NCBI GenBank assembly: GCA_020721975.1
Contig: DYLR01000006.1
Location: 1 to 32,110, forward strand
Reading direction: 5' to 3'
DNA: 32,110 nt
From: Blastopirellula marina
Lineage (GTDB): Bacteria > Planctomycetota > Phycisphaerae > Sedimentisphaerales > UBA12454
Positions 4,739 to 31,530 of this stretch are shown piece after piece (position 1 is the first letter of the stretch; each line of letters begins with the position of its first letter). Below the pieces are notes generated by a model. It saw only the letters and a program-made list of their open reading frames with translations, did no database searches and was not told where the DNA came from. Position numbers and translations under genes: made by a program.

Positions 4739-4770
4739 TTAGTTATTTACTATCTCCTGTCTGCTAATTG

Positions 4771-4820
4771 ATTTTAGATTTTGGATTTGTTTCGGATTTC
4801 GGATTTCGTGCTTCGGATTT
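4771..4820 (+). repeat. Dispersed GGATTT-type 7-bp-periodic array, locus A
   Basis: attttagattttggatttgtttcggatttcggatttcgtgcttcggattt; 4794-4820 is the exact reverse complement of 25996-26022 (27 nt). Confidence 0.85.
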
Positions 4821-6874: not shown

Positions 6875-6892
6875 AGATTTTTGCCTCTTATC

Positions 6893-6921
6893 TTTGATAT
6901 TTGGTTTTTGATATTTGATAT
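6893..6921 (+). repeat. T-rich right arm flanking the four-helix-bundle ORF, locus B-right
   Basis: tttgatatttggtttttgatatttgatat, imperfect inverse of 6587-6618; ends 16 nt before the probable alaS start. Confidence 0.75.
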
Positions 6922-6937
6922 GATAAAGGGATTATTT

Positions 6938-9637
6938 GTGTTTTCAGCCGGACAGATACGACAGCAGTTTATAGATTTCTTTGTAAATCAGGGCCATAAG
7001 TTTGTGCCGAGTTCGCCGACCGTGCCGCCGGACGACCCGACGCTGCTTTTTGCAAATGCCGGGATGAACCAGTTCAAGGATATTTTCCTCGGCACAGGCT
7101 CTCGCGATTATAAACGCGCGGTCAACAGCCAAAAATGCATCCGTGCCGGCGGCAAACACAACGACCTCGAGGATGTCGGCACAGACACCTATCACCACAC
7201 GTTTTTTGAAATGCTCGGCAACTGGTCTTTCGGCGATTATTTCAAGACCGAGGCGATTGAATGGGCGTGGAAACTGCTTGTTGAGGTTTGGAAACTCGAC
7301 CCGGGGCGGCTGCATGCCACATATTTCGAGGGCGACAGAGAAGAAAATCTCCAGCCGGATTTTGAGTCTCGGCAGATTTGGATGAAATATCTGCCGGTCG
7401 AGCATATTCATCCGGGCAGCAAAAAGGACAACTTCTGGGAAATGGGCGAAACCGGTCCGTGCGGACCATGCTCGGAAATACATTACGACGGTACGGACGA
7501 TTTTTCCGGCTCATCGCTTGTCAATACAGGTTCGCCGAAGGTGATTGAAATCTGGAATCTTGTTTTTATTCAGTTTAATCGCAACGGAGAAGGAAAACTA
7601 TCGCCGCTGCCGGCAAAACATGTCGATACGGGGATGGGGCTTGAGCGCATTGTGCGAATACTTCAGGGCAAAGATTCCAATTATGATACCGATTTGTTTG
7701 CGCCGATTATCGCGGCAATTGAAAAAATCAGCGGCAAAAAATATAACGGCACATTAAACGAGAAAAAAGATGCTGCATTTCGCGTTATTGCAGACCATAT
7801 CCGCACTTTAACCTTTGCAATAACCGACGGCGGCGTGCCGAGCAATGAAGGCCGGGGATATGTAATTCGCAGAATATTACGGCGGGCCTGCCGCTTCGGC
7901 AGAGTGCTTGATATGCACCAGCCGTTTATGGCAAAACTTGTGCCGGTGGTTATAGAGCAAATGGGCGAGGCATTTGGCGAAATCAAAAAGAGCAGGGATT
8001 TTCTATGCGCAGCGCTTACCGCCGAGGAAGAATCGTTTAACCGTACGCTCGACCGAGGAATTGAAATTTTCAACAGCGCCGCCGAAAAGGCGACCGGCAA
8101 AACTATTTTCGGCGACGACGCCTTCGCACTTTACGACACTTACGGTTTTCCGCTCGATTTGACGCAGCTTATGGCGCGAGAACGCGGGATGAGCGTTGAT
8201 GTTAAAAAATTTGAGCAGCTCATGGAAGCCCAGCGCAGCCGGGCTCGCGGCGCAAAAAAGGAACTCTCGCTTGCTGCGCTTATTTCGGGCGTAACACCCC
8301 CGGCCACCGATGACGGTCAAAAATATCTGACGGATTCATCTGCGGCAAAGGTGATAGGTTTTGTTGACAGGCAGGGCTATAAAGACAAAGGAACGCTCAC
8401 AGAGAAAAACGAACAGGCCGCAATAATACTCGACAAGACCTGTTTCTACGCCGAATCCGGCGGCCAAACAGGCGATTGCGGTATAATTGAAGGCAAGGCC
8501 GGTACGTTCAGCGTGGAAAATACCGAAAAGGCAGGCAACTGCATTTTACACTGCGGAAAAATTGTTTCGGGAACAATATCGGTTGGTGATGATGTATGTG
8601 CTAAAGTTGACTCTGGCCGACAGTCGAGCAGGAAGAATCACACGGCTACGCATCTTTTACAGTGGGCGTTGATAGAAACGCTCGGCAATTCAGTGCGTCA
8701 GCAGGGGTCACTTGTCTGCCCGGATTATCTGCGGTTTGATTTTACCTGCCCCCGTGCGTTAACTCCGCAGGAAGTCAAACGTGTTGAACATCTTGTCAAT
8801 GAAAAGATACATGCGAATCTGCCGGTGGCCTGGGCGGTAATGCCGATTGACAAGGCTCGAAAGCTCGCAGCGCATGCGCTGTTCAATGAAAAATATGGCG
8901 ATGTAGTTCGCGTGATTGCAATAGGCGCTGAAAGTGAGGAAAAGCTGCACGAGGCCTTCAGCAGGGAATTCTGCGGCGGTACGCACGTTGAAAATACCGG
9001 CCAAATCGGCGGATTTAAGATAATTAAAGAGGAAAGCATTTCATCAGGCGTGCGAAGAATAACTGCGATTACCGGATATGCTCTGCAGGCCTGGTTTGCT
9101 CAGCGCAGCGAAATTATTGACGATATTTGCGAACAGCTCAAGACAAGGCCGGAGGAAATTTCTGTACGAATCGGCAAGCTCATCGAGGAAAATAAAAAAC
9201 TTGCCAAAGATATAAAGTCGGTCAAAAAAGGCGGCGGCACAGATGCTGTTTCTCAGGCGGCAGAACTTCTGGCAAAGTCTGAAAAAATTGGGTCAACCGC
9301 AATAATCATCGGCAGACTTAATAATGCTTCGGATGAAGATGTGCGCGGTGCGATAGATATGCTCCGCAAAAAAGCGACATCTGCGGCAATTGTACTCGGC
9401 ACGGCAGCGGGCGACGACAAGGTGATGCTCTTTGCCGGAATGACGGACGATTTGGTTAAGAAGGGTTTAAGTGCGGGAGAAATTGTAAAGCAGATTGCAC
9501 CGGTTGTCGGCGGAGGCGGAGGCGGCAGGCCCAATATGGCTCAGGCCGGCGGCAAAAACGCAGCCAAACTTGACGAATCGCTGAGAAAAGCCGGCGAAAT
9601 TATTAAAGGCAAGTTAAAAGAATCTCCGGCAAAATGA
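6938..9637 (+). CDS. alaS: Alanyl-tRNA synthetase
   Basis: FSAGQIRQQFIDFFVNQGHKFVPSSPTVPPDDPTLLFANAGMNQFKDIFLG; FCGGTHVENTGQIGGFKI; C-terminal GGGGGGRPNMAQAGG. GTG at 6938 has SD aaaggg 7 nt upstream; the ORF-track start 6881 lies inside the repeat. Confidence 0.97.
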   Translation: MFSAGQIRQQFIDFFVNQGHKFVPSSPTVPPDDPTLLFANAGMNQFKDIFLGTGSRDYKRAVNSQKCIRAGGKHNDLEDVGTDTYHHTFFEMLGNWSFGDYFKTEAIEWAWKLLVEVWKLDPGRLHATYFEGDREENLQPDFESRQIWMKYLPVEHIHPGSKKDNFWEMGETGPCGPCSEIHYDGTDDFSGSSLVNTGSPKVIEIWNLVFIQFNRNGEGKLSPLPAKHVDTGMGLERIVRILQGKDSNYDTDLFAPIIAAIEKISGKKYNGTLNEKKDAAFRVIADHIRTLTFAITDGGVPSNEGRGYVIRRILRRACRFGRVLDMHQPFMAKLVPVVIEQMGEAFGEIKKSRDFLCAALTAEEESFNRTLDRGIEIFNSAAEKATGKTIFGDDAFALYDTYGFPLDLTQLMARERGMSVDVKKFEQLMEAQRSRARGAKKELSLAALISGVTPPATDDGQKYLTDSSAAKVIGFVDRQGYKDKGTLTEKNEQAAIILDKTCFYAESGGQTGDCGIIEGKAGTFSVENTEKAGNCILHCGKIVSGTISVGDDVCAKVDSGRQSSRKNHTATHLLQWALIETLGNSVRQQGSLVCPDYLRFDFTCPRALTPQEVKRVEHLVNEKIHANLPVAWAVMPIDKARKLAAHALFNEKYGDVVRVIAIGAESEEKLHEAFSREFCGGTHVENTGQIGGFKIIKEESISSGVRRITAITGYALQAWFAQRSEIIDDICEQLKTRPEEISVRIGKLIEENKKLAKDIKSVKKGGGTDAVSQAAELLAKSEKIGSTAIIIGRLNNASDEDVRGAIDMLRKKATSAAIVLGTAAGDDKVMLFAGMTDDLVKKGLSAGEIVKQIAPVVGGGGGGRPNMAQAGGKNAAKLDESLRKAGEIIKGKLKESPAK

Positions 9638-9827: not shown

Positions 9828-10820
9828 TTAGAACTGTCTGAGGAATCGCAGGTCGTTTTCAAACAGCATACGAATATCGGGTATGCTGTATTTTCGCATT
9901 GCAAGCCGTTCTATGCCGAAACCGAACGCCCAGCCGGTATATTTTTCACTGTCAATGCCGACCGCATTAAATACATTCGGGTCAACCATTCCGCAGCCGC
10001 CTATTTCCATCCACCCGTCCGATTCGTCCCTGTCTTGCCAAAGAATATCGACTTCCGCGCTTGGTTCGGTGAACGGGAAAAAGCTCGGCCTGAAACGCCA
10101 TTTTGTATCCGGGCCGAAAAAGGCATGCATAAACTGGTCGATGCTTGTGCGCAAATCAACCATGCTTACGCCTTCATCGACAACAAGCGCTTCAATCTGG
10201 TGAAACATAAACATGTGTCTGGCGTCAACGGTATCGGGGCGATAAACACGTCCCGGCGCAACGACGCGAATCGGCGGTTTACGGCTTTCCATTACGCGAA
10301 TCTGAATTGTCGAGGTCTGGCTGCGAAGCAGGGTTTTTTCATCGATATAAAAATTATCGGCAGGGTCGCGAGCGGGATGTTCCGGCGGTATATTTAAGGC
10401 CACAAAATTGTGCCATTCGTCTTCGACCTCCGGGCCGTAAGCTATCGAAAAACCCATACGCGCGAATATTTCTATCAGTTCATTTATAGTTTTTGTAATA
10501 ATATGATGCGCACCAATATCGATTGGCTCGCCCGGCAGGGTAACATCAACCAAATTTTGGATTTTGGATTTTGGATTTTGGATTGAAGACTGTGCTTGTT
10601 CAAACGCCTCGGTTATCTGCTGCTTTATGGAGTTGGCAAGCCGGCCGGCATCCTTGCGCTGCTCCGGAGGAGCCGAGCCGACCATGCCGAGCATCTGTGT
10701 GATACTGCCTTTGCGGGACAGGTACTTTATGCGGAATTCCTCGAGCTGCCGGGCATCCCGCACATCTTTAAGCTCTTTGAGAGCCTGTTCGCCAATCTGT
10801 TGAAACTGATTGATATCCAT
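9828..10820 (-). CDS. pheS: Phenylalanyl-tRNA synthetase alpha subunit
   Basis: VDVTLPGEPIDIGAHHIITKTINELIEIFARMGF, LLRSQTSTIQIRVM, FRPSFFPFTEPSAEVD, FGFGIERLAMRKYSIPDIRMLFENDLRFLRQF. Confidence 0.97.
   Translation of the reverse strand: MDINQFQQIGEQALKELKDVRDARQLEEFRIKYLSRKGSITQMLGMVGSAPPEQRKDAGRLANSIKQQITEAFEQAQSSIQNPKSKIQNLVDVTLPGEPIDIGAHHIITKTINELIEIFARMGFSIAYGPEVEDEWHNFVALNIPPEHPARDPADNFYIDEKTLLRSQTSTIQIRVMESRKPPIRVVAPGRVYRPDTVDARHMFMFHQIEALVVDEGVSMVDLRTSIDQFMHAFFGPDTKWRFRPSFFPFTEPSAEVDILWQDRDESDGWMEIGGCGMVDPNVFNAVGIDSEKYTGWAFGFGIERLAMRKYSIPDIRMLFENDLRFLRQF
10554..10588 (+). repeat. GGATTTT-type array, locus C, inside pheS
   Basis: Four tandem attttgg units (10554-10581) then attgaag; translated antisense as SIQNPKSKIQN in PheS. 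Confidence 0.9.
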
Positions 10821-11313: not shown

Positions 11314-11377
11314 TCGATTTTGGATTTTAGATTTTGGATTACAGATTACGGATTACGGATTTTAGATTACAGATTTA
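11314..11377 (+). repeat. GGATTTT/GGATTAC-type array, locus D
   Basis: cgattttggattttagattttggattacagattacggattacggattttagattacagattta; includes the rpmI stop codon (tta, 11375-11377). Confidence 0.85.
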
Positions 11378-21976: not shown

Positions 21977-22783
21977 ATGAGCAAGGCATTTTTACGAACT
22001 GCACGGGCGTATTTGTCCGGGCCAATGGATTTCGTCGCATCAAGAGACGAAGAAAAGACAATGGGCTGGCGCGTTCGTGTGCGGCAATTTTTAAAATCAC
22101 TGGGTGTAACCGTCTTCGACCCGTGGTCAAAACCCCGCGTGCTGGGCAGACACGATTACGGCAGAGAAGATACCACTACTCAAAAAGTTCGCGAAAACTG
22201 GACGTTTGAATCCGGCCAGGATGCGGCAAAACGCCGGAAAGACTGCGCCGATGCTTTTCGTGAAACGCTGCACATAGATTTGCGTATGATAGACTCAAGC
22301 GATTTTGTGATGGCGTATTGCCCGACCAATATTTACAGCGTCGGTACGCCTCACGAAATAGTCGTGGCAACACAGCAGCATAAACCCGTGCTGGTAGTAA
22401 GTCCGCCGGTGGAATTCCCTGCGTTGAATCAGCTTCAGAATCATTTGGAATCGCGCGGCGACAAACAGGCTCTTAAACTGCTTGAGCAGCTTAAACGTGA
22501 AGTGCCGATAAAGCCCAATCAAAAGGCCGTACCGAGCCTGTGGTATATGCCGCTTGTGGGCAGTGAAAATTTCTTTGACGGTTTTGGTTTTGACGAGTTT
22601 CGCAATGAATTCAACTGGCCTTTCGAGGCCTGCGACCAGACTGAACGCCAACGCCCGCCGCAAAGGCCTATTTTGGGTTTCCTGAAAAAACTACATGATA
22701 CCGGTGAACTGCCGAAAAAATGGAGCAAATCGGCAGGGGCGTTTGTAATTGACGACGACTGGCTTTTGCTGGACTATGAATAA
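21977..22783 (+). CDS. Hypothetical protein, nucleoside 2-deoxyribosyltransferase-like fold
   Basis: AYLSGPMDF near the N-terminus, DLRMIDSSDFVMAYCPTNIYSVGTPHEIVVATQQHKPVLVVSPP: the spacing resembles the (Y)xxGP...D...ID.SD.V...GT..E...A...KPV signature. Confidence 0.6.
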   Translation: MSKAFLRTARAYLSGPMDFVASRDEEKTMGWRVRVRQFLKSLGVTVFDPWSKPRVLGRHDYGREDTTTQKVRENWTFESGQDAAKRRKDCADAFRETLHIDLRMIDSSDFVMAYCPTNIYSVGTPHEIVVATQQHKPVLVVSPPVEFPALNQLQNHLESRGDKQALKLLEQLKREVPIKPNQKAVPSLWYMPLVGSENFFDGFGFDEFRNEFNWPFEACDQTERQRPPQRPILGFLKKLHDTGELPKKWSKSAGAFVIDDDWLLLDYE

Positions 22784-24156
22784 TGAATTACAGATCTCAG
22801 ACTTCAGATTACAGATTTCAGATTTTGGTATTTTTGGCATTTGCAGCGATATTTGTTCCGGCCGGTTGTTCAAATAAGAATGCTGCCGCAGGCCGGACAA
22901 TTAAAAAACTTGTGATAATCAGTCCGCATAATGAGGATATTCAATACGAGTTTGAGACCGCATTTAAAAGTTATGCAAAACATAATTTTGAATGGGATGT
23001 TTCCTTTGAATGGCGCAATGTGGGCGGTGGAGCAAGCGCTATTCAGCAGTTTATAGAAAATTCATATCTGCAGTCGCAAAGCTGCGGAGTTGATGTATTT
23101 TTTGGCGGCGGCGAATATCCCTATCAGGCGCTTGCCGAGCAGGGTCTGCTGGAAAAACTGGAAATCGAGCCGCAGGCGCTTGCGCAAATTCCGCAGCAGT
23201 TCGGCGGTATGCCTTTTTATGACCCCGATATGCGCTGGATTGGCAGCACACTCGGCGGTTTTGGTTTTATTTACAACAGCAAACTTTTGCAGGAAATGGG
23301 CGTTTTGCCGCCTGAAAAATGGGAGGATATGGGCAGGGCAGAATTTTTTAATTTGATACTGCTTGCCGACCCGACGCAATCCGGCTCGGCGGCTGCGGCG
23401 TATGAAATGATTTTGCAGACCGAACCGAACTGGCCGAGCGGCTGGGCTAAACTGCTTTCTATATTGTCGAATGCAAAACGGTTTGCAAATAATGCCGGCG
23501 AGGCGGCAAGCGGACCTGCCGTTGGCGAGGCGGCAATTGCGGCGAGCATTGATTTTTATGGCATAATGCGCGCTGCCGAGGCGCCTGACAAGCTGGTTTA
23601 TATAAATCCCAGTGGTCAAACCGGCTACACGCCCGACCCAATAGCTATTTTGAAGAATCCGCCGAACAAAGACACGGCTGGAAAATTTGTGAACTTTGTT
23701 TTGTCGCCTGAAGGGCAGGCTTTGTGGGGGTTGCCGGCAGGGCATCCCGACGGCCCCAAAAGAAGCTCGCTTAATCGTCCGCCGATACGAAAGGATTTCT
23801 ATGATAAATATGAGGGACAAATGCTGAAGGGTCTTTCGAACCCTTATGTTGCGGCAGCAGGAATGAATATGAACGCGGAACTGCGACGGGTGCGATACGG
23901 CGTATTGAATCATCTGGTATATGCCGCGGCTATTGCGAATCTTGACTTGATGAAGCAGGCCAAACAGGCTCTGATTAAAAGCAATTTCGACGCGGCTAAA
24001 CTGGCGATATTTAATGAGCTGCCGCAGAACATACGTACAATCGATGATTTCAAGGCAGCGGCTGTAAAACTCAAAGAGCCTCGTGCGGCGGAGCTTTTGA
24101 CCAGCGGCTGGACGAGCTATTTTCGGGAAAAATACAGGAAAATCATCGGCAGTTGA
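22783..24156 (+). CDS. ABC transporter extracellular substrate-binding lipoprotein (iron-type)
   Basis: Lipobox VPAGC; VDVFFGGGEYPYQALAEQGLLEKLE, GGFGFIYNSKLL, IAILKNPPNKDTAGKFVNFVLSPEGQALWG; upstream of matching permease. Confidence 0.88.
   Translation: MNYRSQTSDYRFQILVFLAFAAIFVPAGCSNKNAAAGRTIKKLVIISPHNEDIQYEFETAFKSYAKHNFEWDVSFEWRNVGGGASAIQQFIENSYLQSQSCGVDVFFGGGEYPYQALAEQGLLEKLEIEPQALAQIPQQFGGMPFYDPDMRWIGSTLGGFGFIYNSKLLQEMGVLPPEKWEDMGRAEFFNLILLADPTQSGSAAAAYEMILQTEPNWPSGWAKLLSILSNAKRFANNAGEAASGPAVGEAAIAASIDFYGIMRAAEAPDKLVYINPSGQTGYTPDPIAILKNPPNKDTAGKFVNFVLSPEGQALWGLPAGHPDGPKRSSLNRPPIRKDFYDKYEGQMLKGLSNPYVAAAGMNMNAELRRVRYGVLNHLVYAAAIANLDLMKQAKQALIKSNFDAAKLAIFNELPQNIRTIDDFKAAAVKLKEPRAAELLTSGWTSYFREKYRKIIGS
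22786..22828 (+). repeat. CAGATT/GGATTTT-type array, locus E, in the 5' coding end of the lipoprotein gene
   Basis: gaattacagatctcagacttcagattacagatttcagattttg; encodes NYRSQTSDYRFQI. Confidence 0.75.
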
Positions 24157-29491: not shown

Positions 29492-30511
29492 ATGCGAATC
29501 GCAATTGACGCCATGGGTGGCGATTATGCGCCTAAGGAGATAGTGGAGGGCGCAATTCTGGCTCTGGATGTAATTGAGCCTGCCGATGAACTGCTTCTGG
29601 TCGGACCGACGCAGTTGATTTTGGACTGCGCAAGTTCCAAAAAAATTCACAATCCGAAATTGCACATTATAGATGCTCCTGAAATTGTTGGTATGGACGA
29701 ATCACCGGTGGAGGCGCTTCGTAAGAAGCGCAACAGTTCCCTGCGGGTAATGACAAAAATAACTGCCGACGGACAGGCAGATGCGGTCATATCTGCCGGT
29801 AATACCGGGGCGTGTGTAGCGGCCTGTCAGATGAAAATGAGGTTGCTGCCTGGCGTAAAAAGGCCGGGCATTACGGCAGTTTTCCCCACATACAGCGGAC
29901 CGGTAACCGTCTGCGATGTCGGCGCAAATATAAGCTGCAAACCTATCAATCTTTACCAGTATGCCGTTATGGCTTCGCTGTATTCCGAACATGTGCTGGG
30001 CATCAGAAAGCCGAGGATTGGCATAATGAGCATCGGTGAAGAAGATTCCAAGGGCAATGAGGTTGTTAAAAAGGCTCGCGAACTTATAAAGGCCGACCCT
30101 AAACTGAATTTTATCGGCAATCTTGAAGGCAGAGATGTTTTTTCAGGCGTCTGCGATGTAGTGGTATGCGAAGGCTTTGTAGGCAATGTAGTTCTGAAAC
30201 TCACCGAAAGCCTTGTGAGTGTGCTGTTTAAGGTTATAAAACGCGAACTTTTAAGTACCTCAAAGCTGCTGGCCTGGAGCTTTGGCGGGGTAATGAAGAA
30301 AATATACCAGCGTTATGATTATCACGAATATGGCGGAGCCCCTCTGCTGGGCGTGAACGGCACTGCAATTATCTGTCACGGCACAAGCCGGGCAAGAACG
30401 ATTAAGAACGCCGTGCTGGCCGCCAAAAAATTCCATTCGCAGCAGATAAACAGACTGATCACCGAGCATATTTCCGCATCAAACATCGGAGACCCTGATG
30501 AAGAAGACTGA
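29492..30511 (+). CDS. plsX: Phosphate acyltransferase PlsX
   Basis: MRIAIDAMGGDYAPKEIVEGA, DAVISAGNTGACVAA, VCEGFVGNVVLKLTES, GGAPLLGVNGTAIICHGTS. Confidence 0.97.
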   Translation: MRIAIDAMGGDYAPKEIVEGAILALDVIEPADELLLVGPTQLILDCASSKKIHNPKLHIIDAPEIVGMDESPVEALRKKRNSSLRVMTKITADGQADAVISAGNTGACVAACQMKMRLLPGVKRPGITAVFPTYSGPVTVCDVGANISCKPINLYQYAVMASLYSEHVLGIRKPRIGIMSIGEEDSKGNEVVKKARELIKADPKLNFIGNLEGRDVFSGVCDVVVCEGFVGNVVLKLTESLVSVLFKVIKRELLSTSKLLAWSFGGVMKKIYQRYDYHEYGGAPLLGVNGTAIICHGTSRARTIKNAVLAAKKFHSQQINRLITEHISASNIGDPDEED

Positions 30512-31502
30512 ACATACCGACTTCAATGCCGTTATCACTGGAACAGGGTCTTTCGTGCCTGAAAAAATTCTCACCAATGAAGACCTTTCCAAAATGGTCG
30601 AGACTTCCGACGAATGGATAGTAAGCCGTACGGGCATTAAAACCAGGCGGATTGCCTCGAAAGACCAGACGACCGCAATACTGGCGGCACAGGCTGCCCG
30701 GCGGGCGCTTGAAAACGCCTGTGTATCGGCTGATAATATCGAACTGATAATCGTCGCAACGATTACGCCGGAAATGGTTTTTCCGTCAACGGCCTGTTTT
30801 GTTCAGCAAGCTATCGGCGCAAAAAATGCGTGGGCTTTCGATTTGTCCGCCGCGTGCAGCGGCTTTGTTTACGCCGTTTCAATTGCCAAACAGTTTCTCA
30901 TAAACGGCAAATACAAAAACGCTCTCGTAATCGGGGCCGAAACGCTCAGCAAAATCACCGATTACACCGACCGCAAAAGCTGTATCCTTTTTGGCGATGG
31001 AGCCGGAGCCGCCGTCATCGAGGCAAAAACTGCCGGTCCTCGCGGCATTTTGTACTGCAACTCAGCCGCCGACGGGTCCGGCTGGGAATCGCTTTACTGC
31101 CCCGCTTACGGCAGCAGATATCCTGTCGGCAAAACGCTGCCGGACGAACGGTTTATTTATATGCAGATTAACGGAAGAGAGGTTTATCAACTGGCAGTAC
31201 GCAGAATCGTTGAGCTTGTCAACGACTGTATGGAAAAGTGCTGCCTGAATCTCGACGATATCAGCCTGTTCATTCCACATCAGATGAACGCAAGGATTAT
31301 CGAATCGGTGGCAAAAAGGCTCGATTTGCCCGATGAAAAGGTCTTTATAAACATTGATAAATACGGCAACACCTCGGCGGCATCGATACCGATTGCGCTT
31401 GACGAATGCCGCAGAACTGGAAAAATTAAGCCGGGCGATATTGTTCTGCTGGTGGCTTTCGGCGGCGGACTTACCTGGGGCGCAAATGTAGTGGAATTTT
31501 AG
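30498..31502 (+). CDS. fabH: 3-oxoacyl-[ACP] synthase III (FabH)
   Basis: ITGTGSFVPEKILTNEDLSKMVETSDEWIVSRTGIKTRRIA, FDLSAACSGFVYA (active Cys), FIPHQMNARI, INIDKYGNTSAASIPIAL; overlaps plsX by 14 nt. Confidence 0.97.
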   Translation: MKKTEHTDFNAVITGTGSFVPEKILTNEDLSKMVETSDEWIVSRTGIKTRRIASKDQTTAILAAQAARRALENACVSADNIELIIVATITPEMVFPSTACFVQQAIGAKNAWAFDLSAACSGFVYAVSIAKQFLINGKYKNALVIGAETLSKITDYTDRKSCILFGDGAGAAVIEAKTAGPRGILYCNSAADGSGWESLYCPAYGSRYPVGKTLPDERFIYMQINGREVYQLAVRRIVELVNDCMEKCCLNLDDISLFIPHQMNARIIESVAKRLDLPDEKVFINIDKYGNTSAASIPIALDECRRTGKIKPGDIVLLVAFGGGLTWGANVVEF

Positions 31503-31530
31503 ATTTTAGATTTTAGATTTTGGATTGAAG
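31500..31530 (+). repeat. GATTTTAGATTTTGGATTGAAG array, locus G
   Basis: tagattttagattttagattttggattgaag; begins in the fabH stop codon; end gattttggattgaag identical to the end of the pheS copy. Confidence 0.85.

Follow-up and report, generated by a model that had tools for sequence, protein, structure and literature searches.

A dispersed heptad repeat probably replaced part of a variable linker in the PheS of a planctomycete

The pheS gene of a metagenome-assembled genome (MAG) assigned to Blastopirellula marina contains a short, perfect heptad array that is read in frame as part of the protein. We propose, with a probability of about 0.7, that this array is a copy of a lineage-specific dispersed element of the form (GATTTTR)n-GATT, which replaced an equal length of hypervariable surface linker and probably has no function of its own. 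The window analysed is the 32,110-nucleotide stretch of contig DYLR01000006.1 in which the gene lies.

Results

The pheS gene (9828–10820, minus strand) is intact, with 330 codons. Its product scores 316 bits against TIGR00468 (cut-off 237), and both PF02912 and PF01409 were detected in it. pheS is an essential gene, and this is the only copy in the whole genome. The rplT gene for L20 (10832–11191, minus strand) adjoins it directly upstream, a conserved arrangement that recurs in 76 of 79 related loci. The source assembly is fragmented, with 1.65 Mb distributed over 120 contigs. The closest relatives of the protein come from Planctomycetota MAGs labelled Phycisphaerae or Sedimentisphaerales; the nearest comparison genomes belong to the same family (n = 12) and then to the same order (n = 58), with none from the same genus. 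Short second copies of the C-terminal 32–66 residues of PheS were seen in L075 (4350–4445) and in genomes G042, G047 and G048; in L075 and G048 they lie downstream of pheS, ~370–550 bp away. They may have been left behind by a duplication or by integration at the pheS 3′ end.

Tandem Repeats Finder (TRF), run on the window, reported an array at 10554–10584 (plus strand) with a period of 7, 4.4 copies, 100% matches and the unit ATTTTGG; the perfect 31-bp tandem repeat is also plain from the sequence itself. On the pheS strand it reads (AATCCAA)n and corresponds to nucleotides 237–267 of the gene, that is, codons 79–89, which encode SIQNPKSKIQN in frame. An earlier, sequence-only reading had described four perfect heptads translated antisense into this peptide. 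The peptide and its frame were correctly given and the repeat is indeed perfect and tandem, but it comprises 4.4 units rather than exactly four. When up to one mismatch was allowed, ATTTTGGATTTTGG occurred seven times in the window, compared with a mean of 0.03 in 100 shuffled sequences, none of which reached seven. The right flank of the array, GAAGA (10585–10589, plus strand), is common to at least seven other arrays here and encodes the Ser-Ser that precedes the repeat peptide. Inspection by eye revealed no evident target-site duplication at the pheS array.

The array is real, but it is not specific to pheS: it belongs to a genome-wide heptad family that the sequence-only reading had overlooked. 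The degenerate probe GATTTTNGATTTTNGATT, with up to one mismatch, gave 179 matches in the genome (95 + 84) as against 38 (25 + 13) for the reversed control, and the exact 18-bp probe GATTTTGGATTTTGGATT was present in 49 copies, with none for its control. Elsewhere the 18-bp probe was found once in total, in one of the 58 order relatives, and in none of the 12 family members, which implies that the pheS copy is younger than the split from the sampled family members. By these searches the GATTTTR family is lineage-specific; across the phylum, a three-unit array was sporadic (18 of 392 genomes). Within the genome, the GATTTTR, GATTACA, TTTCGGA, ATTTCAG and CTATACC heptad families occur side by side.

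The ends of the arrays proved to be strongly phased. Phase statistics were confined to arrays of at least 24 bp (n = 35), in which the search probe leaves the phase unbiased. Thirty-two of these begin at unit phase 0 or 1 (GATT or ATT; p about 1e-14) and 24 stop exactly after GATT (p about 4e-13). The boundary together with its GAAGA flank, GATTTTGGATTGAAGA, was matched exactly eight times in the genome, with 0–1 matches for the control. The right flanks of the sampled arrays fall into a few classes (GAAGA, GAAACC and TGTTTCGG), the pheS copy being of the GAAGA class. Additionally, other repeated sequence often trails the arrays (GAAACCGCGGATT..., GAAGAAACCCCGCGAATAAATCGCGGGG; for example in L166, L155, L035 and L150), which suggests composite intergenic elements.

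Array contexts were taken from sampled stretches of the genome containing about 55 arrays. Nearly all of these are intergenic or touch gene ends, and only the pheS copy is interior to a conserved gene. Within the window, one intergenic GATTTTR-family array runs on into TTTCGGA heptads (4770–4820, plus strand), and another, upstream of rplT, passes from GATTTTR to GATTACA/G units (11316–11376, plus strand). A KASIII-type gene (30498–31502) runs at its 3′ end into a GATTTTR-family array with a GAAGA flank (31496–31526, plus strand), the first units of which supply its TAG stop codon. A solute-binding lipoprotein-like gene (22783–24156) opens with codons formed by degenerate ATTTCAG/GATTACA heptads (22787–22825, plus strand), and the beginning of its signal peptide (MNYRSQTSDYRFQILVFLAF; 22783–22840) is also made of degenerate heptads. 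The alaS ORF, as called from TTG, opens in degenerate TTTGATA heptads (MPLIFDIWFLIFDMIKG; 6881–6946); its true start is probably the ATG that follows them. Among the sampled arrays, one encodes the C-terminal residues of an HlyD-type protein (SSIQNPKSKI-stop). Others touch an N-terminus, namely that of a UbiA-type prenyltransferase, of an AddB-type protein or of a solute-binding lipoprotein, and others still are just upstream of flgI, trpE, a purQ-like gene (labelled by eye) and an M16 peptidase gene. Independent interior cases were found in other Planctomycetota: an FGE-sulfatase domain (L191) contains SKIQNPKSK, and the same peptide is also present within a long ORF that belongs to no known family (L188). 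The L191 protein (489–2366), of the FGE-sulfatase/PEGA type, carries several heptad-coded inserts.

Comparison with relatives bears on the state of the linker before the repeat. About 109 pheS loci, partly redundant, were fetched, giving about 100 related PheS sequences, and 38 sequences (this PheS and 37 relatives) were aligned. The IQNPKSK peptide is absent from all relatives among the ~109 fetched loci, redundancy included, and no relative was found to encode the same peptide with non-repeat codons. Since the repeat family is also absent from all 12 family-level relatives, the pheS repeat is derived rather than ancestral; an origin of the peptide ancestral to the lineage was accordingly rejected. 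The heptad peptide was also absent from the PheS linkers of 13 other repeat-bearing Planctomycetota genomes. The linker, measured from F73 to D92, is 18 residues long here and 17–21 in relatives, with a mode of 18 (23 of 37), and residues 78–89, which comprise the array and its flank, are the highest-entropy 12-residue window of PheS across the 37 relatives. An unchanged length at the most variable stretch indicates that the repeat replaced ancestral linker without lengthening the protein, which upholds the earlier suggestion that it had taken the place of part of the coiled-coil-to-core linker. The alignments thus support a position in the linker that joins the helical arm at the N-terminus to the catalytic core, in place of ancestral sequence.

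The baseline used by the sequence-only reading, the Ala/Glu-rich helix of E. coli PheS, turned out to be less apt. In relatives this most variable segment is rich in K/Q/S/G and has no conserved Ala/Glu helix, so the E. coli helix was dropped as reference state in favour of the relatives' alignments. Because the segment is hypervariable, the replacement is far less drastic than the original wording implied. The linker is ~3 residues shorter than in solved bacterial PheS chains, e.g. that of E. coli (3pco). In an AF2 model of the protein, which is weak overall (mean pLDDT 63.5), the long arm helix stops at residue 81 and residues 82–107 are irregular, with pLDDT below 50 at residues 82–104.

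The coding properties of the heptad help to explain how such an array can be accommodated. Pure ATTTTGG, i.e. (GATTTTG)n, is stop-free in all six frames, whereas the GATTTTA unit introduces stops. Because 3 and 7 share no common factor, a strand yields a single peptide whichever frame is read, and on the pheS strand this is the hydrophilic PKSKIQN. The array is therefore tolerated because the pure heptad is free of stops and yields a single hydrophilic peptide in this orientation. Worked out by hand, two of the four unit positions in pheS would turn into a stop if the unit were ATTTTAG. We considered whether G-only units had been selected in pheS, but purity alone is no proof of this, since pure-G arrays occur outside genes too. 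If one or two units were gained or lost, PheS would be cut short at 86–116 codons, while a change of three units keeps the frame; the assembled copy number is thus the one compatible with coding.

Discussion

These results are consistent with a scheme in which a dispersed element was copied into pheS, perhaps by ectopic recombination or template switching, and settled in the linker between helical arm and catalytic core, displacing the same length of sequence. Three features would have allowed it to survive: a pure, stop-free array giving one hydrophilic peptide, (PKSKIQN)n; a linker site that appears to accept almost any K/Q/S/N-rich residues; and an overall length that preserved the reading frame. 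Within PheS, the array is most likely a neutral linker with no function of its own.

A purely local origin, in which a heptad-like motif in an AT-rich and K/Q/S/N-rich linker was expanded by replication slippage independently of the other arrays, would suit a weakly constrained linker that is length-variable in relatives, and heptads slip readily. However, the unit, both boundary phases and the GAAGA flank match a family of dozens of copies in the genome, a chance product is not expected to equal the genome's own dispersed heptad, and linker length did not increase. We regard local slippage as rather unlikely, since the fixed boundaries and the flank found at at least seven other arrays favour copying. 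The flank held in common is just 5 bp and encodes a Ser-Ser that some relatives have at this position, so it could be a coincidence. We also doubt, somewhat more strongly, a bolder form of copying, in which the heptad moves actively as an element with defined ends, (GATTTTR)n-GATT, and either inserts into short targets or converts them, its pure-G form having been selected as a 'universally open' coding tract. If it were true, PheS and the FGE-sulfatase would be two cases in which nature had tried replacing a linker with a repeat that is not a transposon.

The phased boundaries would also suit a recognised element, and several arrays lie close to gene starts, as might be expected if the peptide, or the DNA array as a putative protein-binding site, gave PheS or its transcript a new property. 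Such recruitment seems very improbable given that the peptide occupies the least conserved part of PheS and that many other arrays sit at unrelated intergenic places. A misjoin of contigs through the repeat might be suspected in a MAG of 120 contigs with 49 copies of the 18-bp core, but the frame runs unbroken through the array, both halves align gap-free to full-length PheS, the rplT–pheS order is kept in relatives, the genome has no second pheS and a sequencing read is longer than the 31-bp array. We thus consider an assembly artefact extremely unlikely; a chimera test comparing the identities of the N- and C-terminal halves of PheS gave a correlation of −0.13, this measure being uninformative. 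Finally, loss or gain of a heptad would shift the pheS frame, as at contingency loci, and could in principle turn the gene off and on. A phase-variable switch is nevertheless scarcely credible, since turning off a single-copy gene that is generally known to be essential would be lethal, and the array is short (4.4 units), lies mid-gene and is in a gene that is not of the surface or contingency type.

Copying of a dispersed repeat, the reading we prefer, has parallels elsewhere. The family resembles the STRR-like class in having 7-bp tandem units, many dispersed copies above chance, a mostly intergenic or gene-edge distribution and several heptad families side by side. Cyanobacterial STRR heptanucleotides, the units of which probably differ in sequence from the heptad here, were reportedly described by Vioque in 1997 inside rnpB of heterocyst-forming cyanobacteria; there too, one of the dispersed arrays lies inside the gene for an essential RNA, whereas the pheS array is read in frame as protein. 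In Candidatus Maribeggiatoa (BOGUAY) and other Beggiatoaceae, TAACTGA heptamer direct repeats are dispersed in well over 100 sets, most of which lie between genes and close to where a gene begins or ends. One set is upstream of a pheS. Coding sequence is contained in or overlapped by 24 sets; these mostly affect the ends of proteins, and a single one, in an RNA polymerase beta′-like ORF, falls in the interior (PMC4679880). The present repeats are likewise 7 bp, dispersed, mostly intergenic or at gene edges and sometimes coding, but the unit differs, and here it is the stop-free orientation that lies within a conserved essential enzyme, in its most variable linker.

The GGGAATC and GGGGA(C/T)T heptamers of Xanthomonas and Nostoc are also dispersed and mostly intergenic, with variable last unit positions, a preference for four units and some copies that are intragenic or overlap stop codons; in Xanthomonas, 7–11% are at least partly intragenic (PMC4692102). 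Those repeats are G-rich and quadruplex-forming, whereas GATTTTR is AT-rich and lacks runs of three or more G. Rickettsia palindromic elements, as summarised in PMC3767692 (citing Ogata 2000), are 100–150 bp palindromes in frame inside pre-existing ORFs that are kept. The pheS array is similarly a lineage-dispersed repeat in frame within a pre-existing ORF, but it is a 31-bp tandem heptad array rather than a palindrome of that size. The entry of dispersed heptamers into coding sequence has thus already been described, in Beggiatoaceae, Xanthomonas and Nostoc. The pheS array is probably another harmless insertion of this familiar sort, in a location that is unusual and well controlled.

It provides a clean case of a non-coding dispersed repeat made part of an essential protein, at a site where ~100 relatives show that variation is tolerated. 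With a stop-free unit whose length, 7, is coprime to 3, heptads can enter genes where other repeats cannot. The fixed boundaries of the arrays bear on how bacterial heptamer repeats spread, and the case is also a warning that PKSKIQN-like repeat peptides in metagenomic proteins reflect repeats in the DNA rather than homology between proteins.
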